This document shows, piece after piece, positions 5,061 to 63,607 of a DNA stretch of 64,000 bases. The notes below the pieces were generated by a model, which saw nothing but the letters and a program-made list of their open reading frames with translations, was not told the origin of the DNA and ran no database searches. How positions within the stretch are numbered: the stretch's first letter is position 1; each line of letters starts with the position of its first letter. This stretch comes from Sinohyriopsis cumingii (Eukaryota; Mollusca; Bivalvia; Unionida; Unionidae), in NCBI GenBank assembly GCA_028554795.2, contig CM068838.1:127128428-127192427 (forward strand), read 5' to 3'. The position numbers were made by a program, and so were the translations under genes.

Positions 5061-5365
5061 AGATCGCTCCGTTGACCCGTCCGTTGATCAATTTTGATTT
5101 GCTAGCGATGACTAAATCAAATATTTTCATGATGTTTTTTATGCAAGTTGAACTTGCATCGGTGGTGCTATACACACGTGAAAGTAGCACCATAAGTCTG
5201 GATTTGTCAACAAGCCCTGTCACTCACTGGGTCGCATACGTGGTAACTCATCAGCATAGCTTATATTTAGACTCGTATGGACTTGCATCACAAACTGAAG
5301 TTGTTCATTATTTATCCCGGGGCACTGGTGGACGAAAACCATTTTGTTCACATTTATCAGTATAA
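5030..5365 (+). pseudogene. Adenain-like cysteine protease relic, C-terminus missing
   Basis: Adenovirus-type proteases process capsid proteins with a His-Asp-Cys triad. The frame shows PLINFDLLAM near the start, THWVAYV (catalytic His) and YLDSYGL (catalytic Asp region), in the spacing usual for Polinton proteases. It then runs into a stop at 5,363. The nucleophile region (usually CGxYC) was not found downstream. The gene follows the small hydrophobic protein directly. The His and Asp motifs make the family call good; the gene is truncated. Confidence 0.72.
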
Positions 5366-12444: not shown

Positions 12445-12473
12445 CCATCACGCGGACGTGATGGAAAACATCC
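12445..12473 (-). promoter_or_regulatory. Copy of the gene A/B/C promoter motif, with a palindrome
   Basis: CCATCACGCGGACGTGATGG is a perfect 8-bp inverted repeat around CGGA. It continues as AAAACATCC, so the right 23 bp match the CGCGGACGTGAAGGAAAACA-type motif upstream of the small Polinton genes at 61-63 kb with one change. No TATA box or small gene is evident beside it. A second copy is at 15,607. Confidence 0.5.
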
Positions 12474-32507: not shown

Positions 32508-32550
32508 GGCCCTTTTCAGGGCCACTCCATTGCCTCGAAAAGATTAACTC
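32508..32550 (+). terminator. Histone-type 3' stem-loop and downstream element, gene D
   Basis: GGCCCT-TTTC-AGGGCC at 32,508-32,523 is a perfect 6-bp stem with a UUUC loop, preceded by AACAAA and followed by ACTCC. A purine tract CTCGAAAAGA lies about 12 nt further, where the U7-binding downstream element sits in histone genes. Confidence 0.8.
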
Positions 32551-41137: not shown

Positions 41138-43290
41138 ATGAAAGTAAGAAAATTTAGAACTACGGCGTACACATACTCGGTGAAGTTTAAAGATTTCAAG
41201 TCTAACTTACCACTGGAGAAAGCAGACGGCTTCATCACTGGGGTGTGGGATTCTTTGTTAACCACTCTGTCAAGCCAAAGAAGACGATTGCTTGAGACTT
41301 TCCACTCATCACGACGGTTTGAAGTCCCCTGTTTGGATCGAGTTTAGCAGCTCAGCAGAATTGACGCCTTCCAAAGTCATGGACAAGATACAACACGTGC
41401 AACAATCCAACGACCAATTTCACCGATGGAAAAGCGACACTGTTCATGACTCATGTCTCTCTCCCCAAGGGGACCGGACAATGCAGAAAAGTGTTATTGG
41501 TGGACGACCTTCGTAGCATCAAGCGTAGCCTCGTCCAGATTAACAACCCTCAAGACCAGATGTGTTTGCCCGAGCCATCGTGGTGGGACGAAAGTATGCC
41601 GACAAGAATGACACGGCAGAACGGAAAAGAGCCTGGCAAACAAATCAAAAATCGAATCGTGCCAAACAGCAAAGAGAATCAGAACTCCTGTTACAGCAAG
41701 CGGGGCTATCCAAAGACACACGTTGTGTCATTCCTGAAATGCAAAAATTACAAGATGTCCTAGCTCCGCGCAACACCTTGAAAGTGCATCCTCAAGAAGT
41801 AAACGGACGATTGTGTTTTCGAGGCAAAGATTTCCAAGACGGAAAATACATTCACGTCTATCATTACGATGAACATTTCGATGCCATTATCAGTATCACC
41901 GTATTCTTGTGATACAGTTATTACTGCGAGAAATGTGACTATGGTTATAACAACCGAGAGCATCACAAGCGTTGTGGATCGAAATGTGAGGGCTGTTTGG
42001 CCTCGAAACCCTGTCTGGACGAAGGACAACCACGAGTGCATTGCCCTACTTGTCAGCGCACTTTTGTCAGTCCTGCCTGTTACCAACAACATCTAAAGAC
42101 GCAAGGTTCACAGCAGAAAAGTGTTGTCAACTGCTGTGATTGTGTCCTACTTGTGGACAAGGCATACGTACCAACAGTGTCAAAGGACTCGTATCTTCAG
42201 GAAAGAAACGATGTCACATTTGTCACCAAATCGTGGACTTGGAACACCAATGCTACATTAAAAAATACCAATCCCAACAGGAAGATGGTGACAACAAGAA
42301 GAAAGGCAATTTCATCTTTTTCGATTTCGAATGCATGCAAGAGATCAGCATTCACATTCCTAATTTCTGCGTGGCTCACCGAGCATGCGAGAAGTGCATC
42401 GAAGAACCGATCTTTAGTCACTGACCTCACTGCAGCAAGATTCCTGGAGGACGTGAAAAAATCTTTCGGGGACCGAACACGTTGGCCGATTTCGCCAAAT
42501 GGATCTTAGACCCCATCGACGAAACGTGGAGCCAAGAGGACATTGAACGTTACGGTGATTGTCATCGCCATGCCACGGTAATGGCTCACAATTTCTCGGG
42601 ATACGATGGACAGTTTCTTTTGAGATACTATACGGAACAAAGCACCGCCCGTCCTAAAGTGACTTTGAACGGAGACAATATCATTTCCATGTAAGTGGGA
42701 CAAGTACAGTTTAAAGCTCTGATGAGCTATTTGGCCATGCCTTTGAGCCGAATGCCTAAAACGTTTGGAATGACAGACATGGCCAAAGGCTACTTTCCAC
42801 ACTTTTTCAATATCGAAGCCAATCAACATGCCGTTCTACCCCACTTACCTGAGGCTCGCGATTACGACCCGGCATCATGCGTACCGAACAAGAAGAAGTT
42901 TTCTACGCTTGGTACCAGGCTCACGCCTCGGACCCTTTCGACTTTCAGGAAGAAATGTTAAAGTATTGTCGTTCCGACGTGGACATTTTACGACGTTGCT
43001 GTGGAAAATTTCGAGAACTGTTCATGGAACACGGAGGGGTCGATCCTTTCAAAGAAGCTTGTACCATTGCCAAAGCCTGTTCCTTAGTGTACCGACAACG
43101 ATTCATGCCCGAAAACATCCTGGCTGTCATCAATCCTCAAACAGTCAACTTTGTCAAACGTCAATAATACTCGGTCAAAGCCCTACGCTATTTATATTAC
43201 TTGTGCGACAAGGAAGACAAATGGATCCAACATGCCCGCAACAGAGAAGGCGAAAAGACCATCGGAACGTATTCGGTGGATGGTTGGGAC
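41138..43290 (+). pseudogene. Protein-primed family B DNA polymerase, exonuclease half
   Basis: The ATG at 41,138 opens FRTTAYTYSVKFKDF, usual for the N-terminus. Then CFARAIVVGRKYADKNDTAE and a stretch near 41,840-41,930 ending in HYDEHFDAIISIT precede a Cys-rich zinc region (41,930-42,160). Exonuclease motifs are present: FIFFDFECMQ (Exo I, 42,315 region), VMAHNFSGYDGQFLLRYY (Exo II, 42,580-42,635) and YCRSDVDILRRC (Exo III, 42,964-43,000). LAMPLSRMPKTFGMTDMAKG lies between them. After YSVDGWDLENPK near 43,285 the sequence becomes integrase, so the palm with DxxSLYP and DTDS is deleted. There are at least five frame changes or stops (TAA at 43,165). Confidence 0.9.
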
Positions 43291-44342
43291 TTAGAAAACC
43301 CCAAGATCGTGCTGCTAAAACTCGACTGAAAAGTCTTCGTTTACCTCAAGTGCGACGATGGTTACAAGAACAAGCTACCTACACTTTACACAAACCCATT
43401 CGGCGAAAGTTTTCCAGAAGTCGCACCTCAGTGGAAGGCATCGATCATGAATGGCAAGCCGATTTAGCCGATGTCTCTCATTTGTCCGCCTACAATCGTG
43501 GTTACCAATATTTGTTATGTGTCATCGATGTCTTTCCTAAATTTGCCTGGGTTGTGCCATTTACTTCCAAATCGAGTAGTGAGTTAGCGCGAGCCCTTCA
43601 GCGGGTGTTGAAACAAAGCGGTCGTCACCCTCTTCGATGGCAAACTGACAAGGGCACCGAATTTCTGAACCAAGCTTTCCAAAAAGAATTAGAGAAACGT
43701 AACATTCATTTTTTCACTACCGAAAATCCCAAAACCATAGCCAGCATTGTGGAACGTTTTCAACGCACTTTGAAAGAACGCATGTGGAAATATTTTACGC
43801 ATCACCACACTCTCAAGTACATCGACATCTTACCGCACCTGGTTCAAGCGTAAAACCAGTCTTACCATCGACGCATTGGACGTACGCCCCAAGATGTTAC
43901 TCCCGACAACGAAGTGCTCGTTTCTGATCACCTGTTTGCTACGTCCCAGACGGTGGCTGTCCCTAAGAAAGGTGAAGTGTTGTCTGTAGGAGATTGGGTT
44001 CGCATTGGCAAAACAAAACGCACTTTCGACAAAGGTTACTTACCCAACTGGACCACCGAATTGTTTCTTGTCACTGGACGAGTGCATGGCCGTCATCCTG
44101 CCGTCTATAAATTGGAAGCGTGAACGGGGAAGTGTTATAAGGAACGTATTACTTACCCAAATTACAACGTGTGACCAATAAAAGAAGACGTCGTGTACGA
44201 CACCGAAAGCATTCTCGAACGAAGAATCAGTAAAGTGGGAAAACGACGTGTTAAAGAAGTCAAAGTACGTTGGAAAGGATATCCACCCAGTTATGATTCT
44301 TGGATCGACGCTTAGCAAGTCATGGACTATAAAAAGAAGTGA
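43281..44342 (+). pseudogene. Retroviral-type integrase with C-terminal chromodomain
   Basis: Polinton integrases insert the element with 6-bp target duplications. One frame holds the whole protein: RRWLQEQATYTLHKPIRRKF, then the catalytic D,D,E core in HEWQADLADVSHLS, RWQTDKGTEF and ASIVERFQRTLKERM (second Asp to Glu about 35 residues). Next are an SH3-like C-terminal domain (GDWVRIGKTKRTFDKGYLPN) and a chromodomain (YDTESILERR, VRWKGYPPSYDSWID). The frame never shifts, but in-frame stops lie at 43,851, 44,121, about 44,172 and about 44,313. The N-terminal zinc-binding part is lost to the deletion that joins it to the polymerase. Confidence 0.9.
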
Positions 44343-46138: not shown

Positions 46139-47411
46139 ATGATGCACCGAGGGTCTTGCGCCTGTTTCAAGTCGGAACTGGATCTGTTTACCATGCCACC
46201 CACCATGATAACGATGCAAGAATCCCAATGGGTCGAATTTAATCCCGTTTCCTCTGTCAAGGACTCAGCCCCCATCCAATTTGAAATCAAAGGAATGCCC
46301 GAAGACTACATCGATCTGAATAGCAGTTACATGTACTTGAAAGTGAAAGTTGTAGATGAGGAAAATTCGGACCTAGATGGTGATGAGGTACTAGCTCCCA
46401 TCAACAAGTTCATGCATTCCTTGTTCAGCTCCGTGGATTTGTACTTGAATAACAAACTGATCAGCAGTAGCATGGATACTTACCCTTATCAAGCGTACCT
46501 GGAAAATCTCTTGACGTACGGAACAGAGGCCAAGAACACTCATCTGGATGATTGCGTGGTATGGAACCTGACACACGAGGCAAGCTTAGAAACCTAGATG
46601 ACAACAATATGGGGTTTAAAGGCTGTAAAGATAAAATTGCTGGAAGCCGTAGATTAGAACTGATGGATCGCTTGCATTTAGGCATGTGGTTTCAAGAGAA
46701 GTATTTGCTGAACGGCGTGGATGTCCGTCTGATACTGAATCGTAGCAGTTTCGCTTTCCACTTGGTGGCTAATGCTGCTTCTTCCAATTGCAAAACCATC
46801 ATTCAAGAAGCTAGCCTAAAGTGGGAAACGACATCAGTCACACTTTGAGCAGAACGAACTCCAAGTATCCGATACGATGCGTGGAAGTGAACACTTTCAC
46901 CATTCCCGCTAACCAGCGATCCATGATCGAAGATCATCTGTTCCAAGGACAGTTACCCAAACGTTTATTCCTTGGCATCGTCGAGAATTCAGCCTTCAAC
47001 GGAGCGAACGATGAAAATCACCGCGAGTTTAATCACTTCAACGTGTCCAAAATCGAAGTCAGTGGAGATGGCAAGACCTTTTGTACCAGACCTTTCGAAC
47101 CTAACTTTGACAAGAAGAATTACTTGATATCATACTTGTCCCTGTACGAAGCCACCGGACAGTTAGGAACGAAGACCAGTCACGGCATTACGAACGCCGA
47201 TTATGCAGGAGGCTACGCTTTGTGGGCTTTTGATTTCACTAAAGACCAAGGCAGCGACGAGGGACATTTCCACCCTATAAAATCCGGCCCAATTCGAGTG
47301 GAACTTCAGTTTGCTAAACCTCTACCTGAAACGGTGAACGTCATCCTGTATGCAGAATTCGATAATACCATAGAAATCAACAGTTTGAGAGAAGTCATTC
47401 TAGACTATTAG
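46139..47411 (+). pseudogene. Major capsid protein (double jelly-roll, adintovirus type)
   Basis: It starts at ATG 46,139. SELDLFTMPPTMITMQESQW, FEIKGMPEDYIDLNSSYMYL, then INKFMHSLFSSVDLYLNNKL and MDTYPYQAYLENLLTYG are landmarks of the capsid family also seen as F54H12.2-like proteins in invertebrate genomes. Two frameshifts (about 46,560 and 46,850) separate the middle piece (MDRLHLGMWFQEKYLLNGVD) and the C-terminal piece (KYPIRCVEVNTFTIPANQRS, FLGIVENSAFNGANDEN, VELQFAKPLPETVNVILYAE). The stop is at 47,409. About 420 residues overall, full length for the family. Forms the icosahedral shell. Confidence 0.88.
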
Positions 47412-47707: not shown

Positions 47708-48265
47708 ATGGATGCGTGGGAACGTTATTACCTTTTGAACGACAGTTCGTACACTGCTTCTTGGAATACTGTCGTGTGTGCTAAAGATGAACTACGTCAT
47801 CGCAAACCTCAAGACCATCAAGGTTATGCTATCAACACAGACGACAGTCATCTCCCAGGAACCCACTGGGTAGCCGTCTACTGTCCTAAAGAAAGATGTG
47901 CGGAATATTTTGTTTCGTATGGATTGCCCCCCTTTGGAAAACGATATCATTGACTTTATGAGAAGAAATGCTCAGACAACTCGATTCAATAATGTGAAAT
48001 TACAAGGCACAGATTCATTAGTGTGTGGACAATATTGTATTTTCTGCGTCAACGCAGTCTGGGATATTCTTTAGAACATTTTGTGACTTACTTTGATCGT
48101 CATTCTTCTAGAAACGATGTGAAAGTAGATAAACGTTTTTGTGACCATTATTGTTATCTTTTATCTTTAGTTAGGAAACGTGTGTACATCAATGACCCAA
48201 TGACTTCCAACAGTGGAAGTCTCACTTCAGTTTACAACGTTGTTAACCTTGTCCAAAATAGGTAG
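47708..48265 (+). pseudogene. Adenain-like capsid maturation protease
   Basis: The ATG at 47,708 starts MDAWERYYLLNDSSYTASWN. LPGTHWVAVY carries the catalytic His. The Asp position reads YFVSYGLPP where FDSYG is expected, so the Asp is replaced by Val. A run of six C near 47,931 shifts the frame. SLVCGQYC near 48,012 carries the nucleophile Cys. Compared with the copy at 63,719-64,000, 4 bases are missing just after the CGQYC codons, giving a second shift before YSLEHFVTYFDRHSSRNDVK. Ends at TAG 48,263. Clearly inactive here. Confidence 0.86.
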
Positions 48266-48539: not shown

Positions 48540-48902
48540 ATGTGCTCAAGATTAGACAAGCTGAACGAAGCTTACGTGAATTTGCATCGTGTCAGGCAAA
48601 GCCTGATACCGAAGCCTATAGAGATAGAGAATGTCAGAATGTTAAAAGTCACTGAAGACCTGATAGAAGAAGTCTTCAGAGAGGAAATTAACAGGGAGAA
48701 ATAAGAATAGCCGGAGAAGTACAGACTTCAGAAACGACAGAGAGAACAGAGAGAGCAGCAGCACCATCACCAGCAGGAACCTGACAGAGGTTTTGTCGAC
48801 TGCCATGTAGACACCAAAGAGTTCTCCTTCTCTTTCCGAAGAAGCAGACCCTATCCTATGGGAAAGCCTGTCGCCAGACGAGGCCGCAATCTTAGATCAT
48901 AA
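48540..48902 (+). pseudogene. Small terminal gene A, left copy
   Basis: From ATG 48,540 the frame reads MCSRLDKLNEAYVNLHRVRQ, IENVRMLKVTEDLIEEVFRE and so on for 53 codons to a TAA. A TAG follows two codons later, where the right copy (63,019-63,387) has Asp and Trp codons. The same frame then continues without a shift through a Gln/His run and DRGFVDC and KEFSFSFRRSRP to TAA at 48,900. So the left copy is a full-length gene with two clustered nonsense codons. Predicted product: about 120 residues, an N-terminal amphipathic helix, an acidic helix, Gln run, basic tail. No known family; a histone-type 3' signal follows. Confidence 0.72.
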
Positions 48903-48935: not shown

Positions 48936-48974
48936 AGCCCTTTTCAGGGCTACCCAATACTCTAGAAAAGAAAT
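48936..48974 (+). terminator. Histone-type 3' stem-loop and U7-like site, gene A left
   Basis: AGCCCT-TTTC-AGGGCT at 48,936-48,951, preceded by AAAACAAC and followed by ACCCA, the canonical histone 3' flank. CTAGAAAAGAAA follows at 48,963, eleven bases on, as the purine-rich downstream element. Confidence 0.85.
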
Positions 48975-49128
48975 ACTCATTCAATTGCCAATGGTATGTT
49001 AGTCAGTTAGAAAAAAAACGAAGTGCGTCTAAAAGCACATTATTTCTTTATCTTAGAAAGTGTGGCTATAAGCCCTTCGTTTCCGTAGCTTGTCAAAAAA
49101 ATTAAATTAGTGATTGTTAATAAAAAAG

Positions 49129-49253
49129 TGAGTGAGTGTTTCTTTTAAGTCCGCGCGTATTTGGTGATAATATGGGCAATGTAAGTTTTGGAGACGGGAT
49201 GTTTTCCTTCACGTCCGTGCTTGACCAATAAATAGGGAACGCTCGTCAGTCTG
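49129..49253 (+). promoter_or_regulatory. Promoter module of gene B (left copy), two motif copies
   Basis: Distal copy GTGAGTGTTTCTTTTAAGTC plus CGCGC at 49,131-49,157. Proximal copy GGGATGTTTTCCTTCACGTC plus CGTGC at 49,196-49,220. AATAAATA at 49,227 and TCAGTCTG at 49,246-49,253 follow; ATG at 49,290. The double motif is also present in front of the right-hand gene B. Confidence 0.7.
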
Positions 49254-49289
49254 GCTACCCATCATTGATTCGTGAAGAACGACAAAAAA

Positions 49290-49771
49290 ATGAGCAACAG
49301 AATTGCCAAACTCTTGGAACTCCAGATGTATCTGGAATACGCCCGACGCCTGTTGGATGAGCTGGTCATGGAGGCCATAGCAGAGGAAGCAAAGATAAAG
49401 AGGAGGAGGAAATAAAGAAGAAACAAGAAGAAGAGGAAAAGAAAAGAGGAATCCTTCCTCACCTCATGCTAAGGAAAAGTTGTGAGGTGAAGCCTGTGGT
49501 GAGGACACTTCCACAGGTAGCACCAGCACCAGCACAACAGTCGCAACCACAACAACCACAACAACAACGTCAACAACAACAACAACATTATCCTCGGGTC
49601 TGGCAGCGTAGGAGAAGACAGAGGGAAGGTTACACTATCCCAGAGACAGAAGACTGGGGCGCTGAGGCTAATCATACATCCTCTGCACTCCCATCTGCTA
49701 CAGACAACTGGGATAATGACTGGAGCAAGAGATGTGTCTGCGGTGCCAGGCCGGGGAGATGTCGACATTAG
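49290..49771 (+). pseudogene. Small terminal gene B, left copy
   Basis: ATG 49,290 starts MSNRIAKLLELQMYLEYARR and LLDELVMEAI. After a one-base shift within the Glu/Lys-rich stretch near 49,400, the frame continues through Pro/Gln-rich sequence (APAPAQQSQPQQPQQQRQ) and GYTIPETEDW to a C-terminus RCVCGARPGRCRH before TAG at 49,769. The right copy has the same beginning and ends RCVCGARPVRCHH. The conserved C-x-C-x5-C-x-H tail could bind a metal. About 160 residues here. Family unknown. The N-terminal helix resembles that of gene A, so the genes may be paralogues. Confidence 0.7.
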
Positions 49772-49799
49772 CTAGGTGCCTCTTGAGTTCCAAAACAAC

Positions 49800-49838
49800 A
49801 GCCCTTTCCAGGGCTAACCAACGCTCTAGAAAAGAGTC
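49800..49838 (+). terminator. Histone-type 3' stem-loop and U7-like site, gene B left
   Basis: AGCCCT-TTCC-AGGGCT at 49,800-49,815 with AACCA after it. CTCTAGAAAAGAG at 49,824 matches the expected complement of the U7 snRNA 5' region (CUCUUUUAG) well. Confidence 0.83.
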
Positions 49839-49959
49839 TCTATTCAGTTTGCCAATTTGCGTGACTGTGGAGTAGAATGAATATAAACACTCACTCATTT
49901 ACTAATGTGATTATGTGTGTTTGTATGTGTATGTGTGTTTGTATGAGCTCACAAACGTT

Positions 49960-50545
49960 TGTGTGGATAGTAGATTATTGGGGTTTGTAAGCGCTAACGT
50001 ACGTTTGTGTGGATAGTAGATTATTGGGGTTTGTAAGCGCTCGCGTACGTTTGTGTGGATAGTAGAGTGTGAGGTTTTTTCAACCTTCCCTTCTGTGTGG
50101 ATAGTATAATTAGGTTTTGTTTTGCTTCTTCGCGTGTGTGAATAGTATAATTTGGATTTGGTTTTTGCTCCTTCCCGTGTGTGGATAGTATATTTTGGTT
50201 GATTTTTGCTTCTTCGCGTGCTTAGATAGTATAATTTTGGTTTGATTTTTCTCCTTCCCGTGTGTGGATAATATATTTTGGTTTTGAATTTGCTCCTTCC
50301 CTTGTGTGGATAGTATATTTTGGTTTTGATTTTGCTCCTTCCCGTGTGTGGATAGTATATTTTGTGTTTGTTTTTTGCTTCTTCGCATGTGTGGATAGTA
50401 TATTTTGGTTATGTTTTTGCTCCTTCCCGTGTGTGGATAGTATATTTTGGTTATGTTTTTTTGCTTCTTCGCATGTGTGGATAGTATATTTTGGTTATGT
50501 TTTTTGGCTCCACATCTCTGTGTGGATAGTAGATAATATGTGTAG
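49960..50545 (+). repeat. Tandem repeat between genes B and C, unit about 42-62 bp
   Basis: Units carry TGTGTGGATAGTATATTTTG and GCTCCTTCCCGT or GCTTCTTCGCAT. About ten copies, the first three longer (with TGTAAGCGCT). Related, more degenerate units lie in the inverted block at 61,801-62,060 and 62,750-62,890, so the array belongs to the element. The 42-bp period keeps frame and makes long spurious open frames on both strands. Confidence 0.85.
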
Positions 50546-50555
50546 TGAATGTAAT

Positions 50556-50614
50556 GGATGTTTTCCTTCACGTCCGTGCTGACAGATATAAACTCAAAGC
50601 GTTCGTCGTTCGCG
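50556..50614 (+). promoter_or_regulatory. Promoter module of gene C (left copy)
   Basis: GGATGTTTTCCTTCACGTCC plus GTGC at 50,556-50,579, TATAAA at 50,587 and GTTCGTCGTTC near 50,600, then ATG at 50,641. The start-region words also occur before the right-hand gene C. Confidence 0.7.
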
Positions 50615-50640
50615 CCATTCTACAAAGAATAAAAAAGAAG

Positions 50641-51018
50641 ATGGCTTCAAACAACCTTAACAAAATGAAGAAGTTACAAGACGTTCTGGACAATTTGGGA
50701 ATAATAGAGCAGATGCTAGTAAAACTGGACGATGATCACTATTCCCATAGACCACATAGAATAAAGATGGAGATAAACAGCTAAAGAAAGTTAAATGAAA
50801 TAATAAGCGATCTGCTTAAAGAAGAAAAGGAGGAGAAGGAGGATGAAGAGGAAAGAATAAGGACGAAGGCGTGGAACGAAAAAATTGAAAAGGAAGAAGA
50901 AAATGAGAAGAGGAAGAACGAGGAGGAGGAGAAGGAGAAAAAGGAGAAAAAGGAGGAAGAAAAAAGAGAAGAAGAGAAAAATTGTAGGAGCAAAAATAAG
51001 AAGTCGGTGGAAGAATAG
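50641..51018 (+). pseudogene. Small terminal gene C, left copy
   Basis: ATG 50,641 starts MASNNLNKMKKLQDVLDNLG and IIEQMLVKLDDDHYSHRPHR. A TAA at codon 48 replaces a TTA of the right copy. The frame then continues unshifted through a very Lys/Glu-rich helix to TAG at 51,016, giving 125 codons, exactly the length of the right copy. So one nonsense change separates it from an intact gene. Product: an N-terminal helix with regularly spaced Leu, an HY-S-x-x-PHR-x-KMEIN segment, and a charged coiled coil. No known family. Confidence 0.75.
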
Positions 51019-51041
51019 AAGAAATTAGAAGAAAACCAAAA

Positions 51042-51080
51042 GGCCCTTTCCAGGGCCACTCATATGCCTCGAAAAGAACT
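51042..51080 (+). terminator. Histone-type 3' stem-loop and downstream element, gene C left
   Basis: GGCCCT-TTCC-AGGGCC at 51,042-51,057, preceded by ACCAAAA and followed by ACTCA. CTCGAAAAGAACTG lies at 51,066. Confidence 0.83.
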
Positions 51081-51159
51081 GCTTTCTTGCCTCAAATTTA
51101 AAAAAAAAAATGTTGTATAAGTGTTTGTCTATTGTCTGTGTTATATCTGTACATCCGCT

Positions 51160-51497
51160 CTTTGCTCAGTACTGTGACGTCACCTCCCCTAGTTGCAACA
51201 TTGTTACCAATCTCCCCTATCGTGACGTCAGAGGCTATACAGTCTCCACTTTCCCTTGTCTGTCAACATGCCCAATATTCCCCATGTTCAATTACCCTTG
51301 TCCGTCAACAGGCCCAATCCATTGTCCCTCTATATATTCCTATGCTCAATTTCCCATGTTAAATTCCCCTTGTCCGTATACAGGGCCGGGTGGGGTGGGG
51401 TGGGGTCCGTAATGTATTTTCCCATTCTCCGTATACAGGCCCAGGGGGTTCTGTAATGTGTGTTCCTATTGTCCGTATATCTCCCCCATTCACTACT
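51160..51497 (+). repeat. Right terminal region of Polinton block 3
   Basis: Two TGACGTCA sites (51,175-51,182 and 51,223-51,230) surround TTGCAACATTGTTACCAAT, as in block 2. Then units with CCCATGTT-AAATTCCCCTTG follow, and the end CATTCACTACT at 51,497. The inverted block 4 has the same end at 60,983, and sequence beyond both ends differs after AAC. Confidence 0.65.
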
Positions 51498-52827
<1,330 letters not shown>

Positions 52828-52830
52828 CAG

Positions 52831-52926
52831 GTGAATTTTAAATCTTCGGGATATGGTGGAAAATACTACAATGTTGGCCGTTCTGTTGTTCCTATTATTG
52901 TTGGATCGAGCAGCTGCTGGACAGGG
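52831..52926 (+). CDS. Candidate first coding exon with a signal peptide (host gene)
   Basis: The TTACAG acceptor at 52,825-52,830 directly follows the (TA)n tract. The ATG at 52,853 begins [20 protein letters not shown], then AAGQ, a textbook signal peptide (short n-region, Leu-rich core, A-x-A-like cleavage site). A donor GGG|GTAAGA ends the exon at 52,926 in phase 2. Acceptor, signal sequence and donor all within 100 bp make a secreted-protein gene plausible. No further exon was identified in the window; the satellite array downstream would lie in an intron or beyond the gene. Confidence 0.5.
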
Positions 52927-54242
52927 GTAAGATAAAAATGCAATTGCTAAAATCTGTGGATCTTTGTCAATTTAATGTGATAAGTACACAAGCAGACCGA
53001 AAGCGAATTATGTCTGCAATGAGCTACAACGTGAAACTTGGAAACATGATTGCAAGTGAGAGACATGCCACTGCTTATATATTCATACGCAACTTCCAGC
53101 TGTCCCGTCCCGTTTATGCTGAATTATGTAAAGCCACCTAAAGGATTTCTTACGTAATAAATAACAGATACGAGTGAATTTGTTTTTACAAAGAGATAAG
53201 ACAACAAGGACAGTCATTATGCAATTTTGACTCATGATGACAGTAAATGTAGAAAGAGGCAAAGTGGCAAGGGACTACGCTAACTTTAAACAAACGTATT
53301 AAAATTGACAACAAGCTTATTTCTATCACGGTATAAATAAACTGTGTGCAGCACTTCCAGTTCATGTCACGTACTATATCAATTCCATTTAGCCTAAAAC
53401 AAATACTAGCTTGTTTAATGATAAAGTATGCATTATGCAACAGAAATGACAACGGAATAAAATAGGATGGTTAAGATGCGATTTCGGTATCTCCTTGCTT
53501 TTCTTGAAAAATGAAGAAACTGTAAAAAAATATGTAAAAATTGTAAATGTAATAACTTAAGTGAGCCTCGAAGCAGACAAATAGATCTACATATACATAC
53601 ATGTATTTTACGTGGTGAGAAATAGCAGATGTTGGTCATGTTAAATGCCTTTGTGCACATAATTTATAACCGAAACTGGAACGACATTATCTCAAGAATT
53701 GAACACACAGGTATCTCGGAGGAAACATCAAAAACCTAACATGAACTGTTTATAAAGCCTTTATTGCGACACGGACCTGAATACGTCAGAAGCCAATTCA
53801 TAAATCTGAACATCATAATAAAAATGAAAATAAGTAGAACATGTGTTAACTATTGCTACTCGTAAACTACCGAACCATCTTTGGGATACCAGTTTTATAA
53901 TTTTTGGCCAAGCGTCAAGTACACACTCACCTTGTTTGCGGTTGTCCAGCCGTAACAACAAGGGTTATTACCCGAGCAACAGACTCGAACAATCTATATC
54001 CACATGTCCCGCCATCTTTGTTATTGTTCACTCCAACTTCAGATGAGGTGTGCGTTCTGACGCCAAATTCACGCTGAAAAAAAATTTGGCAAACAATGTT
54101 CTTCAAATTAAGGTGATAAAGAAACAATACAACATTGTTTTCGTGACCAGACCTGCCTCGCCCAGAGGAATCCCTAGTACAGTTGATATGGAAAACAAAT
54201 TTGGTGGGTGATCACTGTAATACAGGCGCTTATATGCTGATT
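52927..54242. other. No gene recognised
   Basis: Possible intron of the preceding exon. Open frames here are short and without motifs. Confidence 0.45.
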
Positions 54243-57200
54243 GTTCACTTAACACTGTCATTGACACATGACACTGTCAAAGACACGTAACACTATCACA
54301 GACACTTAACACTATCATAGACACGTAAGATTATCATAGACACTTAAGAATATCATTGACACTTAACACTATGATTGACACTTAACACTATGATAGACAC
54401 TTAACACTATGATACACACGTAACACTATCATAGACACCTAACACTATCATAGATGCTTAACACTATCGTTGACACTTAACACTATGAGAGACACCTAAG
54501 ACTATCATTGACACTTAACACTATGATTGACACTTAATACTATGATAGAAACTTAACACAATGATAGACACTTAACACTATCATAGACACGTAAGACTAA
54601 CATAGACACTTAAGACTATCATTGACATTTAACACTATCATTGACACTTAATACTATGATAGACACTTAACACTATGACAGACACTTAACACTATCATAG
54701 ACACATAACACTATCGTTGACACATAACACTATCATAGACACTTCAAGCTATCATAGACACTAAACACTATCATAGACACTTACCACTATCAAGGACACC
54801 TAACACTATAACAGGCACTTAACACTATCATTGACACATAACACTATCACATACATTTAACACTATCATAGACACTTACAACTATCATAGACACTTAAGA
54901 CTATCATTCGCATGTAACTCTATCATAGACACTCAACATTATCATTGACACTTAAGACCATGATAGTCACTTAACACTATGATAGGCACTTAACACTATC
55001 ATAGCTACATAACACTATCATAGACACTTAACACTATCATAGACACTTAGCACTATCATAGGCACTTAACAGTATGATTGACACTTAACACTAAGATTAA
55101 CACTCAACACTATGATAGACACTTAACACTATCATCGCCACATGACACTATCTTAGACACATAAGACTATCATTGACACTTAACACTATCATAGAGACAT
55201 AACACTATCATAGACACTTACAACTATCATAGTCACTTAACACTATCGTTCACACATAACACTATCATAGGCACTTAATACTATCATAGACACTTAACAC
55301 TATCATAGCCACATAACACTATAATAGGCACATAACACTATCATCAACACCTAACGCTATCATTGACACTTAACACTAAGATTGACACTTAACACTATGA
55401 TAGACACTTAAAACTATCATAGCCACATAACAATGTCATAGACTCATAACAATATCATAGACACTTAACACTATTATAGTAACATAACACTATCACAGAC
55501 ACATTCCCACTATCATAGACACTTAACACTACCACAGACACATAACACTATCATAGACAGTTATCACTATCAAAGACACATAACGCTATCGTTGACACAT
55601 AACACGATTATAGACACTTAACACTATCATAGACACATAACACTATCATAGACACATTCCCACTATCATAGACACTTAACACTATCACAGACACATAACA
55701 CTATCATAGACAGTTATCACTATCAAAGACACATAACGCTATCGTTGACACATAACACGATTATAGACACTTAACACTATCATAGACACATAACACTATC
55801 ATAGACACATAACACTATCATTGACACTTAACACAAAGATTGACACTTAACAGTATGATAGACACTTAACACTATCATAGCCACATAACAATATAATAGG
55901 CACATAACATTATCATAGACACTTAACACCATTATAGTCACATAACACTATCATAGACACTTGACACTATCATAGACACTTACCCACTATCATTGACACT
56001 TAACACTATCATAGACACGTAACACTATCATAGACACCTAACACTATCATCGACACTTAACACTAAGATTGACACTTAACACTATGATATACACTTAGCA
56101 CTATCATAGCCACATAACACTATCATGGACACATAACAATATCATGGACATCATTGACAATTAACACTAAGATTGACACTTGACACTATGATAGACACTT
56201 AACACTATCATAGCCACATAACACTATCATGGACATCATTGACAATTAACACTAAGATTGACACTTGACACTATGATAGACACTTAACACTATCATAGCC
56301 ACATAACACTGTCATAGACACATAACAATATCATAGACACTTCACAATATTATAGTCACATAACACTATCATAAACACATACCCACTATCATAGACACTT
56401 AGCACTATCATAGACACATAACACTATCAAAGACAGTTACCACTATTATAGACACTTAACACTATCGTTGTCACATAACACTATCATAGACACTTAACAC
56501 TATCATAGACACTTAACACTATCATAGACACATAACACTATCATAGAACCTTAACACTATCATAGACCCTTAACACTATCATAGACACCTAACACTATCA
56601 TTGACACTTAACACTAAGATTGACACTTGACACTATGATATACACTTAACACTATCATAGCCACATAACACTATCATGGACACATAACACTGTCATGGAC
56701 ATCATTGACAATTAACACAAAGATTGACACTTGACACTATGATAGACACTTAACACTATCATAGCCACATAACACTGTCATAGACACATAACAATATCAT
56801 AGACACTTCACAATATTATAGTCACATAACACTATCATAAACACATACCCACTATCATAGACACTTAGCACTATCATAGACACATAACACTATCACAGAC
56901 AGTTACCACTATCATAGACACTTAACACTATCGTTGTCACATAACACTATCATAGACACTTAACACTATCATAGACACTTAACACTATCATAGACACATA
57001 ACACTATCATAGAACCTTAACACTATCATAGACCCTTAACACTGTCATAGACACTTGACACTATCATAGACTCTTAACACTATCATTGACACATAACACT
57101 ATCATTGACACATATCACTATCTTAGACACTTAACACTATCATAGACACTTAACACTATCATTGACACATAACACTAGCATTAACGCATAATACTATCAT

Positions 57201-58806
57201 AGACACTTAAGATTATCATAGACACATAACACTATCGTATACACTTAGCACTATCATTGACATTTAACACTGTCAAGACACATAACACTATCACTGACGC
57301 TTAAAGCTGTGACACATAACACTATGATAGACACTTAACACTATCGTAGACACTTAACACTATCATAGACACTTAACACTGTCATAGACACTTAATTCTA
57401 TCATTGACACATAACACTATCATAGACACTTAACACTATCATATATACTTGACATTATCATACACCCTTGAGACTATCATAGAGATTTACCACTATCATA
57501 GACGCATAACACTATCATAGACACTTAACACTATCATAGACAGTTGACGCTAACATTGGCACATTACACTAGCATTGACACATATCACTATCATAGATAC
57601 TTCACACTATTATAGACACTTGACAGTATCATACACCCTTGAGACTATCATAGAGACTCACCTCTATCATAGACACATAACACTATCATAGACACTTAAC
57701 ACTATCATAGACAGTTAATGCTATCATTGGCACATAACACTATCATTGACACATAACACTATCATAGACACTTAGCATTATCATATACACATAATACTAT
57801 CATATACACTTATCACTATCATAGAAACTTAACATTATCATAGACACTTAACACCATCTTAGACACTTAACACTGTCATTGACACATAACACTGTCATAG
57901 ACACATAACACTATCACAGACGTTTAACACTATCATAGACACGTAAGTTATCATATACACTTAAGACTATCATTGACACTGAACACTATGATTGCTCTTA
58001 ATACTATGATAGACACTTAACATTATAATAGACACATAACACTATCATAGACCCTTAACATTATCATCGACACTTAACACTATCATAGACACTTAATACT
58101 GTCATTGACACATAACACTGTCATAGACACATAAGACTATCATAGACACTTAAGACTGTCATTGACACTTAAAACTAAGATTGACACGTAATACCATGAT
58201 AGACACTTAACACTATAATAGACACTTAACACTATCATGTACACTTAACACTATCATAGACACTTAACACTATCATGTACACTTAACACTATCATAGACA
58301 CTTAACACTATCATGTACACTTAACACTATCATAGACACTTAACACTATCATAGACACTTAAGACTATTATGGACACTTAAGACTATCATTGACACTTAA
58401 CACTATCATAGTCACTTAACACTCTCAATGACACTTAGCACTATCATTGGCACTTAACTCTATGATAGACACTTAACACTATCATAGACAGTTGACACTA
58501 TCATATACACTTATCACTATCATAGACACCTGACACTATCATTGACACTTAACACTATCATAGACACATACCACTCTCATTTACACATAACACTATCATA
58601 GACACTTAACACTATCATTGTCACATTCCACTATCATAGACACATAACACTATGATAGACAGTTAACACTATCATAGACACATAACACTATCATAGACAC
58701 TTAACAGTATCATAGACACTTACCACTATCATAAATACTTAACACTATCATTGACACATAACACTATCATAGACACATAACACTATCATAGACACTTTAG
58801 CACTAT
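54243..58806. repeat. 19-bp satellite array, about 240 copies
   Basis: The monomer is close to TTAACACTATCATAGACAC. The core 9-mer alternates between CTATCATAG and CTATGATAG, which are reverse complements, and CTTAA alternates with CATAA. Longer blocks are themselves repeated, for example TCATGGACATCATTGACAAT at about 56,140, 56,228 and 56,695, showing higher-order units. Ends abruptly near 58,806. Confidence 0.95.
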
Positions 58807-59348
58807 CATATGTTTTCTTTCATCAGCGTGTTTGTAAGCATAGACACGTAAGTATACATACAAGTTGAGGGAGAGTGGTACATAACAGGTTTTAAACATA
58901 TTTTATTGGCATTACTAAGGCACATGAATTCGGGCTACAAGTTCGCCTACCTTAGCAACAGCCCCACCCATAATACACAAGCAGGTACGTGAAAAGTGCA
59001 AGGACTAACAGTTCGCTTATATACTTATGAATGAATCAGAAATACAACGACATTATGAGAATGAATATCGAAAACTTCATTGTAATGAAAATCGTGATAC
59101 AAAGTAAGTGTACAACAATTATTTAAAGAAGAGAAGGGGTAGAATTGGTGTTGGGGGTTTATAAAGGGGTTTCATGGCGGGTACAGGAGGGATCTGTTGC
59201 TTTTAGGTAATTTGTCTCAAATATTTCTTTAGTTTCTTTAATTTAAGTTTGAAAAATTTCAGATACGAGTGTTTAGGTCTTTTGATAGCTCTGTTGATGC
59301 AAAACAACAATACGTGTGTACAAACATGGATGAATAATTAATTTAATC

Positions 59349-59394
<46 letters not shown>

Positions 59395-59640
59395 AAGATA
59401 GTATAGTTTCTTTTTAACGACACTAACTAGTTTATTTGAATAATTGTGCAGGTGATACAGTTTGTTGACGACAATTACCGACAACCTTTCAAATAGTCTC
59501 AGCCTAATAAAACAAAACCCTGTTTTGAGAATTTTACAGAAAATAAATACGAAAACAAAAAACGACTGCCTTTAAATCAAATCATATGTCAACGTAAGCT
59601 AAATTAATACAAAGTATCCGCGCTTTGCCCTTTTTCTACA
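58807..59640. other. No gene; (CA)n at 59,347-59,391
   Basis: AT-rich with one (CA)n run. Nothing else is supported. Confidence 0.55.
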
Positions 59641-59908
59641 GACCGCTACAGTGGCCTAGTGATTAGAGCGTCCGCCTTGGATGCGGGAGGTCGCGGGTTC
59701 GAATCCCGGTCGAGTCATACCAAAGAATTACAAAAATAGTACTAACAGCTGCCTCAGTAGGCGCTCAACATTTAGTTGTTAGTGTTAGGACCAGTCGGCC
59801 TAGTGTCAGGATAATGTGACTAGGTGGGACATTATACTGCTTATGCGGTATGATGCCCCAGTGCTAGACATCACCACAAGCTACCACATTGCAGACATCG
59901 TAGTGATA
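59641..59908 (+). mobile_element. tRNA-derived SINE family 2, full length
   Basis: Head GACCGCTACAGTGGCCTAGT with A-box TGGCCTAGTGATTAGAGC and B-box GGGTTCGAATCCC, body CAGCTGCCTCAGTAGG and TGTCAGGATAATGTGA, tail CACATTGCAGACATCGTAGT. Followed by (CA)n to 59,955. The cloverleaf does not close at the acceptor stem, so this is not a working tRNA gene. Confidence 0.87.
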
Positions 59909-59909
59909 T

Positions 59910-59940
<31 letters not shown>

Positions 59941-59955
59941 AAACAAACACACACA

Positions 59956-60982
59956 TTCTTGTAAAACCTACAAAACTGGGACAAATTATTTTTACCATCA
60001 AAAGGGGGACATTTTTTTTAGTTTAACAAATTATGAGCGATAAAGATCTATTTTAATATGCATTTGATACATACATGTCAATTCTAATTGATCTGTGGTT
60101 GATTTCCAAGAAACACTGTATGAGAACTTTTGCCATCAGAACGGGGACACACGCATATACACAGTGCTGGAAATTATACAATCAAATACGGGACATTCAA
60201 CAAGTATGTATTTTGATTGTAAATAGAAATCAATTCAATCTAAATACTGCAGTAATCACATCTGATACACATAGTTCCCATCCATTTTAATAAACTAAAT
60301 TAAAATTATCATGTTGAATCTTTCTATAAAGTTTTTTGTATATATAAGTAAAAGTAGTGTCCAGGAGTTTGAAGAAGTTGAATTGTCAGAATTGTGTGAA
60401 AATACAGAGAATGTGTCCCTTTTTCTAAAGTGAAATAATCAAAGATATGCATGCCAATCTTCAGTTAAAATAATTATACTGGCAAGACTACGGTTTAGAA
60501 TTTAAAATGTCCCACACAATAACACATATTTAACTTTGGTGTACAAAAATTTTCCATTTTAGCGCAATCCCTTTCATTAATAAGCCAATGCATGATAAGG
60601 TTTCTTCAATATGAAACACACCAAAAGTTTATTGATGGCATGGTTTAGTTTTAGTGAGCTCAGGTCAAAGGCGCATAAGTGACCCTGGAGCCAAATAGTC
60701 CCTATTAAAATCTAATTGTGTTGATCGATTGTGACGCCATGTGCAGCATTCATGATAGTGACTGGTACATTGTACAATTGAATGATCGAGAAGGGACTGT
60801 CTCGTTATCCGGAGACGCCTTTTATTCTTACTATGATGGTAAATATGGTGTAGAGTTATAGGCCAAATGAGGCTTACAATCACGATTTGACTGACGTAGG
60901 TAGCGTAGGAAAAATAGTTCCCGGTGTTTGGTGTTTGAACTGTGATTTGTATTTTATGGTAGTTAAGTACCGGGGTTACGTT
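59956..60982. other. No gene recognised
   Basis: AT-rich flank of block 4. The minus-strand open frame 60,665-61,099 crosses the element terminus and is not supported. Confidence 0.5.
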
Positions 60983-61200
60983 AGTAGTGAATAGGGGCAC
61001 CCTAGCGTCAATGGGAATTAGCATTAAAACACCCCTGGGCAACTCTAGCGTCAAGGGAAATTTAACATGGAGAAAAATCGTGGGCAACTCTAGCGTCAAG
61101 GGGAATTGAACATGGGGGAATAAAGTGTGGGTCTATCTAGGGACAAGGGGAATTGAACATGGGATTTTTTTTTTAAAAAATAAAAAATAAAAATAAAAAA
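60983..61200 (-). repeat. Terminal region of block 4
   Basis: Four units with TAGCGTCAAGGGGAATTGAA and CATGGG (or near variants) repeat inward from AGTAGTGAATAGGGG. The outermost words match block 3, but the TGACGTCA part was not found. Confidence 0.65.
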
Positions 61201-61224
61201 AGGGTAGGCAATCGAAAGTCATTC

Positions 61225-61260
61225 CCTTTTCGAGAAATGTGGGTGGCCCTGAAAAGGGCC
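61225..61260 (-). terminator. Histone-type 3' stem-loop and downstream element, gene C right
   Basis: On the minus strand CCCAAA-GGCCCT-TTTC-AGGGCC-ACCCACA, the stem-loop at 61,245-61,260. This is the copy closest to the animal histone consensus, flanks included. TTTCTCGAAAAGG follows. Confidence 0.88.
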
Positions 61261-61278
61261 TTTGGGTTTCTTCTGCTT

Positions 61279-61656
61279 CTAATTTCTTCTTTTTCTCCAC
61301 CAACTTCTTATTTTCTCTCCTACACTCTTTCTCTTCTTTTCGTCCTTTTTTCTCTTCTTTCTTCTTCTCCTCCTCTTCTTTCTTCCTCTTCTCATTTTCT
61401 TCTTCTTTTTCAATTTTTCATTCCATTCTCTTATCCTTATCCTTTCCTCTTCATCCTCCTTCTCCTCCTTTATTTCTTTCATCATACCACTTATCATGTC
61501 CTTTACTTTTCTTAAGTTATTAATCTCCATCTTTACTCGATGGGGACTATATGAATAGTGGTCTTCATTTAGTCTCACTAGCATTTGTTCCATCATGCCC
61601 AAATTGTCTAGGACGTCTTGCAATGTTTGCATTTTATCCAGGTGGTTTGAAGCCAT
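61279..61656 (-). CDS. Small terminal gene C, right copy, intact
   Basis: ATG at 61,656; 125 codons, the same length as the left copy, with no interruption. It begins MASNHLDKMQTLQDVLDNLG and MMEQMLVRLNEDHYSYSPHR, then a charged helix with long Lys/Arg/Glu runs and a basic end (KIRSWWRKRRN). Intact length and close match to the left copy argue that it was under coding constraint. The basic C-terminus would suit nucleic acid binding; that is a guess. Upstream in-frame extension to 61,737 lacks support because the promoter module lies there. Confidence 0.78.
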   Translation of the reverse strand: MASNHLDKMQTLQDVLDNLGMMEQMLVRLNEDHYSYSPHRVKMEINNLRKVKDMISGMMKEIKEEKEDEEERIRIREWNEKLKKKKKMRRGRKKRRRRRKKRKKDEKKRKSVGEKIRSWWRKRRN

Positions 61657-61675
61657 CTTCTCTGTAGAATGGTTT

Positions 61676-61802
61676 GAACGACGAATACTGTGCGTTCTTA
61701 TACGAAAAGCGCGGACTTGATGGAAAACATGCCCCAAGACATAAAATTGATCTTACCTAGATCATGACCAAACAACGCGCGGACGTGAAGGAAAATATCC
61801 CC
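61676..61802 (-). promoter_or_regulatory. Promoter module of gene C (right copy), two motif copies
   Basis: Minus strand: distal GGATATTTTCCTTCACGTCC plus GCGCG (61,775-61,800), proximal GGCATGTTTTCCATCAAGTC plus CGCGC (61,709-61,735), TATAAG at 61,698-61,703 and ATTCGTCGTTC at 61,676-61,686. Confidence 0.7.
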
Positions 61803-62100
61803 TACTTTTCTCATTTCATATGATCTACTATCCACATACCTGAACCATCAATAAAGAAACCCCAAATCTACTATTTACACTCACAAATCATTAAAACTAA
61901 ATCCATAATCTACAATCCACACAATCGTACGTCAGCATTTACAAAACCCTAACTATACTCTCCACATACGCTAAGAAACAATAAACAAACCCATAATCTA
62001 CTATTCACACAAACGTACGTGAGTTCTTACAAACACAAACACACACCCTCACACTATGAAAAAAGAGTCAGTGTTTATATTCACACTACTCTACCTACAC
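61801..62100 (-). repeat. Degenerate tandem repeat between genes B and C
   Basis: Repeats of AATCTACTATTCACAC-like words and CGTACGTGAG, counterparts of the array at 49,960-50,545 but longer-diverged. Confidence 0.6.
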
Positions 62101-62129
62101 ACATTGGCAAATTGATGGTTATTTCTTTT

Positions 62130-62161
62130 CTAGAGTATTGGGTAGCCCTGAAAAGGGCTGT
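62130..62161 (-). terminator. Histone-type 3' stem-loop and downstream element, gene B right
   Basis: Minus strand AGCCCT-TTTC-AGGGCT at 62,146-62,161, followed by ACCCA and then CTCTAGAAAAGAAA. Confidence 0.85.
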
Positions 62162-62188
62162 GTTTTTTGGAACTTCATGGACACCTGG

Positions 62189-62535
62189 TTAATGATGGCA
62201 CCTTACAGGTCTGGCGCCACATACACATCTTGTTCTCCAGTTGCTTTTTACTTTTTTTGGGGAGAGAGCAGAGGCGGGATAAATAGCTTCAGAATCCAAT
62301 TTTCTGTCTCTTGGATTCTGAAATTTCTTCTCTCCTTTTCCTCCTCTTCTTTGTTTCTTCTCTCCTCTTCCTCTTCTTTGTATCTTCTCTCCTCCTCTTC
62401 TTTGTATCTTCTCTCCTCCTCCTCTCTCATCCTTCCCTCTTCCACAATGGCTTCCGCGGCCAGTTCGTTCAACAGGCGCCTGGCATATTCCAGATGCACA
62501 TGAAGTTCCAACAGTTTCGCTAGTCTGGTGTTCAT
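62189..62535 (-). pseudogene. Small terminal gene B, right copy
   Basis: ATG at 62,535 starts MNTRLAKLLELHVHLEYARR and LLNELAAEAIVEEG, then a Glu/Arg/Lys-rich repeat (EEERRYKEE units). The start frame ends at 62,248, while the neighbouring frame carries on to RCVCGARPVRCHH before the stop at 62,189. A one-base shift in the A-run near 62,255 or in the purine-rich repeat explains this. Start and end are both conserved with the left copy; the middle is not (Pro/Gln-rich there, EEERR repeats here). About 115 residues. Confidence 0.68.
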
Positions 62536-62562
62536 TCTGGTGTTGATCAATCAACAAGGTTA

Positions 62563-62692
62563 GCTGGACTGACGAGTGACTTTTAATTTATACTAAAAGC
62601 GCGGACGTGAAGGAAAACATCCCCTAAAACATAAAATTGATCTTACCTAGATCATGACCAACACAACGCGCGGACCTAAAAGAAACACTCAC
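62563..62692 (-). promoter_or_regulatory. Promoter module of gene B (right copy), two motif copies
   Basis: Minus strand: distal GTGAGTGTTTCTTTTAGGTC plus CGCGCG (62,668-62,690), proximal GGGGATGTTTTCCTTCACGT plus CCGCGC (62,599-62,624), TATAAAT at 62,586-62,592 and GTCAGTCCAGC at about 62,563-62,573. Confidence 0.75.
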
Positions 62693-62959
62693 TCATTTTT
62701 TTATATACTACCCATTCCTATTCTAAAAATTTTTTTTTCATTAATCAATTCAATATACTATTCACATACGCAAAGCAATCCAATCAAACCCCAAATCTAC
62801 TCTCCCCACACCTCAAACACCAAAAAACATGATCTTAATCTACTATCCACACCAACGTACGTGAGCACTTACAAACACATACACTCACATCACAAAAGAG
62901 TCAGTATTTATATTCACACTACTCTACCTACACACATTGGCAAATCGATTGTTATTTAT

Positions 62960-62992
62960 TTTCTAGTGTATTGGGTAGCCCTGAAAAGGGCT
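62960..62992 (-). terminator. Histone-type 3' stem-loop and downstream element, gene A right
   Basis: Minus strand AGCCCT-TTTC-AGGGCT at 62,977-62,992, ACCCA next, then CACTAGAAAATAAA, slightly weakened against the other copies. Confidence 0.83.
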
Positions 62993-63018: not shown

Positions 63019-63387
63019 TTAGTTTCTAAGAATGCGATGTCCTCTGAGGATAGACTTTCTGTCGATAGGTCTGCTTCTTCGGAAAGAGAAGAAGAACTCT
63101 TTGGTGTCGATACGACAATCGACAAAGCCTCTGTCAGGTTCAGGTTGCTGCTGTTGCTGTTGTTGTTGTTGTTGTTGTTGCTGTTGCTGCTGTCTCTGAA
63201 GTCTGTACTTCTCTGTCCATTCATCTTTCTCCCTGTTCACTTCTTCTCTGAAGAGCTCTTCTATCAGATCTTCAGTGACTTTTAACATTCTCACATTCTC
63301 TATCTCTTCTGGCTTCGGTATCAGACTGTGTCTGACCCTATGCAAATTCACGTAGGCTTCGTTTAGCTTAGCTAGTTTGGAGCACAT
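63019..63387 (-). CDS. Small terminal gene A, right copy, intact
   Basis: ATG at 63,387 (MCSKLAKLNEAYVNLHRVRH), matching the left start; the longer frame upstream to 63,516 covers the promoter motif and is unlikely to be used. 122 residues without interruption: N-terminal helix, IENVRMLKVTEDLIEELFRE, an EKYRLQR segment, a Gln run of roughly 19 residues, then DRGFVDCRIDTKEFFFSFRR and a short basic end. The Gln run is much longer than the Gln/His stretch of the left copy, as expected of a CAG/CAA repeat. Function unknown. Shape resembles a small nuclear regulatory or packaging protein. Confidence 0.78.
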   Translation of the reverse strand: MCSKLAKLNEAYVNLHRVRHSLIPKPEEIENVRMLKVTEDLIEELFREEVNREKDEWTEKYRLQRQQQQQQQQQQQQQQQQPEPDRGFVDCRIDTKEFFFSFRRSRPIDRKSILRGHRILRN

Positions 63388-63414
63388 CTTCGTAGGAGGA
63401 TGAGTCGACAATGG

Positions 63415-63477
63415 ATGGTTAGACTGGAAATTGCCCCGGTTCTTAAAGTCAAAGCGCGGACGTGAAGGAAAACATCC
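63415..63477 (-). promoter_or_regulatory. Promoter module of gene A (right copy)
   Basis: Minus strand GGATGTTTTCCTTCACGTCC plus GCGC (63,454-63,476), no good TATA box (CTTTAAGAA), then CCAGTCTAACC at 63,418-63,428. Confidence 0.65.
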
Positions 63478-63607
63478 ATCCACGGTTTTCGAGCCGAAAC
63501 GTTCAATGAGTGACATGAGAGGGATAGTAAGAAGTCAAAGAGCATGAATCAAACATTCTTATAGCCAAACAAACCACAAAGGCATTTTTTTCAAAACACA
63601 ACATTTT

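Follow-up and report, generated by a model that had tools for sequence, protein, structure and literature searches.

Histone-type 3' ends on the small genes of a putative Polinton/adintovirus-like element in the genome of Sinohyriopsis cumingii

In animals, according to excerpts of PMC9133132, SLBP binds the stem-loop and the U7 small nuclear ribonucleoprotein binds the purine element of histone messages, which are cleaved between the two and are not polyadenylated; moreover, excerpts of PMC6210712 report stem-loops on bivalve histone mRNAs, with purine elements on some of them. Here, we analysed a stretch of 64,000 nucleotides (nt) of the bivalve Sinohyriopsis cumingii (the window; assembly GCA_028554795.2, contig CM068838.1, positions 127,128,428 to 127,192,427 of the forward strand), harboring an element that, judging from its integrase and type-B DNA polymerase (PolB) domains, fits the adintoviruses and Polintons as described in excerpts of PMC11071296, and whose small genes end in the same type of signals. 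These viral genes probably copy the expression cassette of the host replication-dependent histone genes and use SLBP/U7 processing. To our knowledge, replication-dependent histone genes are the sole cellular messages normally ending in the SLBP stem-loop.

The viral genes resemble metazoan replication-dependent histone genes in the 6-bp stem, the 4-nt loop, the A-rich 5' flank and the ACC-type 3' flank, in the purine element 13–14 nt behind the stem, in the short 3' untranslated region and, for four of the six gene families recognised (A, B, C and F, out of A to F), in a promoter box. They differ from them in that those examined encode no histone, in that the first stem pair is A-U in families A and B, and in that the loop is mostly TTTC. 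Adintoviruses and Polintons (Mavericks), on the other hand, share with the element an rve integrase, a type-B DNA polymerase domain and, putatively, capsid-like and adenain-like protease genes, whereas the histone-like 3' ends and promoter boxes of its small genes set it apart from them. The search of the open-access literature did not retrieve, among the matches listed, any report of the viral use of SLBP or U7, nor of histone-type ends in Polintons or adintoviruses; the latter result agrees with the original prediction, made from the DNA alone, which knew of no such description.

A pattern requiring a perfect 6-bp Watson-Crick stem, with four or more G/C pairs, and either TTTC or TTCC as the loop retrieved exactly seven hairpins from the window, each 16 nt long, with their first stem bases at 32508+, 48936+, 49800+, 51042+, 62992-, 62159- and 61260-; the loop is TTTC in five of them and TTCC in two. 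The original prediction had named seven hairpins, and no further one is present; six of its places were exact, and the one given as 62,146 was off by two (62,144). In 40 first-order Markov simulations, 0.025 hairpins per window were obtained, and none with a purine core, which rules out a chance origin of the seven.

The hairpins stand behind small genes, as had been proposed. On the forward strand, decayed copies of gene A (48540..48902), gene B (49290..49771) and gene C (50641..51028) are followed by the stem-loops at 48936..48951, 49800..49815 and 51042..51057, respectively, and then by the purine tracts CTAGAAAAGA (48962..48971 and 49826..49835) and, for gene C, CTCGAAAAGA (51068..51077). 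A further stem-loop (32508..32523, +), with the U7-site-like tract CTCGAAAAGA at 32534..32543 (+), lies behind a D gene; here the proposal stood only in part, this gene being degenerate and without an intact frame. On the reverse strand, a second element carries gene A (63019..63516; frame intact, with the ATG common to its relatives 43 codons into the open reading frame, ORF), gene B (62189..62535; frame broken) and gene C (61279..61656), with stem-loops at 62977..62992, 62144..62159 and 61245..61260 and purine cores at 62958..62963 (GAAAAT), 62125..62130 (GAAAAG) and 61226..61231 (GAAAAG), respectively. The purine tract had been predicted behind all seven hairpins and was found there, its core starting 13 nt past the stem, with the variant GAAAAT at 62992- only. 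The distance from the gene-ending stop to the stem had been put at 24 to about 65 bases; it measures 13–33 nt for six of the seven, and the stop used for 62159- belongs to a different frame from that of the listed ORF, since the gene is broken.

The search with the Rfam Histone3 model (RF00032), which had been suggested as a check, listed six of the seven hairpins, all scoring above background. Two score at or above the gathering threshold of 34 bits (39.8 bits at 61260- and 37.3 bits at 32508+), and four fall below it, with 27.8–32.5 bits and E-values from 1.8e-5 to 0.00095 (32.5 bits at 48936+, 30.1 at 62992-, 28.2 at 62159- and 27.8 at 51042+); the hairpin at 49,800, found with the pattern, was absent from the listing even at E<=10.

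The strongest test of the histone-type reading is represented by the histone genes of the host itself. In its genome of 2.9 Gb they form tandem repeats with a period of about 8.3 kb, as estimated from the spacing of the hits; one repeat (L062) was used for the comparison, whose genes for H3, H4, H2B, H2A and H1 were identified from sequence, with hits of the core-histone domain at some of these places. All five are followed by a perfect hairpin, scoring 35.0–39.4 bits, 27–38 nt after the stop. Furthermore, the host purine core GAAAAG starts 13 nt past the stem in three genes (H3, H4 and H2B) and 14 nt past it in the other two (H2A and H1), and the tract reads CTAGAAAAGA in four of the five genes and CCCGAAAAGGA in H2A. 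In kind and position, CTAGAAAAGA and CTCGAAAAGA of the viral ends agree with the host tracts; the viral ends match the host histone elements in presence, position and spacing. In an alignment of the seven viral and five host hairpins, all 72 cells (72/72) are paired, and the first and the third of the six pairs have changed on both sides. According to these data, the likeness to animal histone gene ends claimed by the original prediction is supported by the host, which has the same kind of hairpin and downstream element, at the same spacing.

Moving to the whole genome, 75 of 589,472 first-look candidates were scored with Histone3. All 75 pass the 34-bit gathering score and 69 exceed 42 bits; the top viral hairpins (45.6 bits) score above all five host histone ends, and one control genome, that of Lactococcus lactis, gave a signal under the cut-off. 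The best 28 of these 75 places were read, as 3-kb loci (L001–L008) or 6.5-kb stretches (L009–L028). Together with the window they hold 67 perfect hairpins, and 67 out of 67 stand behind one of the six small viral gene families (D 18, B 12, E 12, C 11, A 9, F 5), a count that is biased with respect to the focal hairpin, by which each locus was chosen. For this reason, the converse count, from gene to hairpin, weighs more: among the gene hits extending to the C-terminus and with 200 nt available beyond it, 9/10 for A, 12/15 for B, 3/3 for C and 3/3 for F are followed by a perfect hairpin. Two further hits of family B carry a hairpin with one mismatch, and in two other C-terminus-reaching hits the hairpin is recognisable and mutated; no gene hits of D and E passed the C-terminus filter. 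The original prediction had also named, as an outcome that would speak against it, a hairpin belonging to an unrelated dispersed repeat found away from genes; the hairpin is indeed dispersed, but together with the element, and all 67 examined, in the window and in the 28 of 75 scored places chosen by hairpin, lie behind its genes.

Most of the 67 viral ends have further parts of the 3' module in common. In 63, a purine core is placed 12–15 nt away from the stem, versus 144 of 11,200 random places, and in 60 the distance is exactly 13 nt; the loop is TTTC in 64, the five host ends showing TTTT, TTTC and TTTA. Moreover, a TTGCC box is found 29–35 nt past the stem in 61/67, and a host counterpart can be seen by eye about 33–35 nt past the stem in H3 (CTGCCA), H4 (TTTGTCA), H2A (TTTGCCA) and H1 (TTGTCC), H2B having only TTTGTTT at this place. 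A polyadenylation signal (AATAAA or ATTAAA) follows the hairpin at a distance of up to 200 nt in 16/67 cases, versus a background of 20%, i.e., without enrichment. The protease gene of the element is instead followed by TTGAATAAAAAA, in both copies examined (the window and L024).

The genes of the six families that were examined do not encode histones. The family representatives gave no match to any histone family, and proteins A to F had no Pfam match above the cut-off; they are mostly dissimilar from each other, the N-termini of A and B being weakly alike. Proteins D (isoelectric point of 11.2), F (9.7), A (9.3) and C (9.2) are basic, and B and E are not. Protein A has eight relatives in public data; family A shares 66–77% identity with relatives, and the predicted structure of protein A (mean predicted local distance difference test score, pLDDT, 71.2; predicted template modelling score, pTM, 0.44) consists of two helices and a low-confidence tail, with no function indicated.

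The 18-nt hairpin core RGCCCTTTTCAGGGCYAC occurs 38,941 times in the genome, versus 0 for its reversed control, and the five histone ends of L062 all lack it; among about a hundred matches listed, one place has, by eye, an unmatched first pair, and the spacing of the listed places suggests elements of roughly 15–20 kb. Such an abundance of exact cores, together with scores that mostly lie above those of the host ends, is what would be expected if the hairpins, when transcribed, acted as decoys titrating host SLBP or U7 and disturbing the histone supply; a sponge of this kind needs no proteins, and the hairpins stand behind genes for conserved ones, as in family A, so that we hold this explanation to be very improbable.

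The analysis of the upstream regions added to the original prediction the observation that four gene families bear histone promoter boxes. A 23-nt box, GATGTTTTCCNTCACGTCCGCGC, stands upstream of the viral genes A, B, C and F, in the last three usually 5–7 nt before a TATA-like sequence, and the same box lies upstream of the host H2B (no mismatches) and H1 (one mismatch) genes (L062:3030-3052 and 6429-6451); the H2A promoter has, by eye, a similar box on the opposite strand and no match at three mismatches. In the window, eight matches were found at up to three mismatches, versus none in shuffled sequences, and six of them precede A, B or C genes. They are located before genes B (49198..49220, +) and C (50557..50579, +), and, in the second element, before gene C (61709..61731, -, two mismatches, with a further copy at 61777-61799, -, one mismatch), gene B (62599..62621, -, exact) and gene A (63454..63476, -, exact). 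Considering the window, L062 and the 28 loci, a hairpin lies within 1.5 kb downstream of 54 of 57 boxes, a figure to be read with the choice of the loci by hairpin in mind. In addition, a 21-mer of the host H4 promoter, TTTCTTTTAGGTCCGCGCGTT, is identical at 62665..62685 (-) and present with two mismatches at 49139..49159 (+); a third match, at 61774, has three mismatches and overlaps the other box.

Families D and E form a divergent pair around a common two-way promoter, and each ends, on the outer side, in a hairpin, much as paired histone genes do; this D/E arrangement was seen at L003, L010–L014, L016, L021, L023, L026 and L028. By eye, the D/E promoter contains CCAAT-like and TGACGTCA motifs.

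The promoters bear on the question of whether the 3' ends imply timing. A histone-type end might direct processing without any link to the cell cycle, serving only as a compact terminator: compactness alone is selectable, and D and E are driven by their different, common promoter without the histone box. A mere terminator would not need that box, which four of the six families have, and we consider this alternative rather unlikely, if worth keeping in view. It could also be supposed that the hairpins are functionless fragments or pseudogenes of histone genes caught by a dispersed repeat, given that both the promoter and the 3' elements match host histone genes. This idea is barely credible, since six mostly dissimilar families without any histone match have nevertheless kept the hairpin, the tract and the spacing; the lack of a histone-family match and the 3' module kept across families led us to discard histone pseudogenes.

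Several data weigh against the reading of a copied histone cassette processed by SLBP and U7. Five of the seven window hairpins are under the Rfam cut-off, and the hairpin-to-gene count suffers from the selection bias noted above. In 7/67 cases, the 40 nt preceding the hairpin contain AATAAA or ATTAAA. As for the promoters, families D and E lack the box, gene A of the first element has no box match at three mismatches, one box of L020 has no hairpin downstream, and the boxes at 12450-12472 and 15612-15634 (both -) have neither a hairpin nor a histone-type gene, so that the box is not exclusive to hairpin genes; it may be the binding site of a widely used factor. Furthermore, pattern searches of the host genome for U7 gave either no place or 47 places, versus 14 for the reversed control, and the ten of these 47 that were read gave nothing with Rfam at E<=1. 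For the SLBP domain, the search of the host genome yielded no hit at E<=0.001; an intron-split domain could escape this search, and no control genome carries the domain. We take the non-detection of U7 and SLBP as a gap of the searches rather than as absence.

The repeat around the two boxes at 12450- and 15612- is a dispersed one and apparently unrelated. Three of the ten U7-pattern places have a common flank that, by eye, resembles the integrase of the element. The best host U7 candidate (Rfam, 29.3 bits, below the cut-off) was rejected, having an odd Sm-like site and a 5' part that, by our reading, pairs poorly with the host tract.

Regarding the core genes of the element, the window contains an ORF with an rve integrase core (42828..43853, +; PF00665, E 1.4e-10), followed by a putative major capsid gene broken into a piece that by eye resembles the start of the 447-amino acid ORF of L024 (46139..46597, +) and a second piece (46923..47411, +) with 24 relatives, the best sharing 76% identity over 99%, and by the broken start of an adenain-like protease gene (47708..47953, +). 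The longer protease relative in L024 had no Pfam match and gave weak PDB matches, to S273R (E 0.012) and to the adenovirus protease (E 0.8); the capsid-like family is conserved, without any significant sequence match in Pfam or PDB. In L024, the capsid family and the protease adjoin A, B and C. The DNA polymerase is represented in the window by broken pieces only, resembling type B by eye, and in L014 by a 1036-amino acid open frame matching DNA_pol_B_2 (E 5.6e-30), which adjoins a zinc-knuckle gene, E and D. Judging from L014, L024 and the window, the core genes appear to lie between hairpin genes.

Similar tails lie behind the C/F and the D hairpins and look like a terminal repeat, at whose inner edge both hairpins are placed. 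This position would suit a DNA or RNA feature of the element itself, such as part of a terminal inverted repeat used in replication or packaging, with only a superficial likeness to histone ends. The hairpins of A, B and E are instead internal and behind other genes, and a role in replication leaves unexplained both the U7-like tract at the host spacing of 13–14 nt and the histone promoter box; this explanation is very improbable.

A collection of viral contigs, probed with the capsid piece and alignment, the PolB piece, the protein A alignment and three hairpin patterns, yielded no relatives; two hits of the hairpin patterns were discarded, as they lie in contigs whose ORFs look phage-like by judgement and gave no Rfam match at E<=0.01. 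In the window, a 19-bp satellite of about 241 copies (54246-58810) lies between two element ends, and capsid- and protease-like pieces of another decayed element, recognised by eye and without a Pfam match, are located at 3055-3342 and 5030-5365.

We can depict the following possible mechanism for the copied histone cassette. A Polinton/adintovirus-like element would carry six small gene families (A–F) on either side of its structural and replication genes, each with a 3' end copied from a host histone gene, that is, the SLBP stem-loop, the purine element for the U7 small nuclear RNA 13 nt on and the TTGYC box; A, B, C and F would also use the host histone promoter box. Once transcribed in an infected or transposing cell, these genes would be read as histone genes are, and their messages, cleaved and stabilised in the same manner, would lack poly(A) and be present mostly during host DNA replication. 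Since the viral genes carry both elements in the form of the host, we infer that the same U7 machinery cleaves their transcripts and that their expression is tied to DNA replication, i.e., timed to S phase; the cassette itself might have been captured from host histone genes. There is about an even chance that the virus lineage has gone further and made the histone programme of the host a gene class of its own, with genes switched on, processed and destroyed together with the histones and perhaps transcribed in the histone locus body.

If six gene families do end in this way, the histone 3' pathway can be taken over. Such a case would also point to a way in which the genes of a small DNA virus could be coupled to S phase, and would supply a natural set of non-histone genes with which to test what each of the parts (stem-loop, U7 site, histone promoter box) suffices to do.

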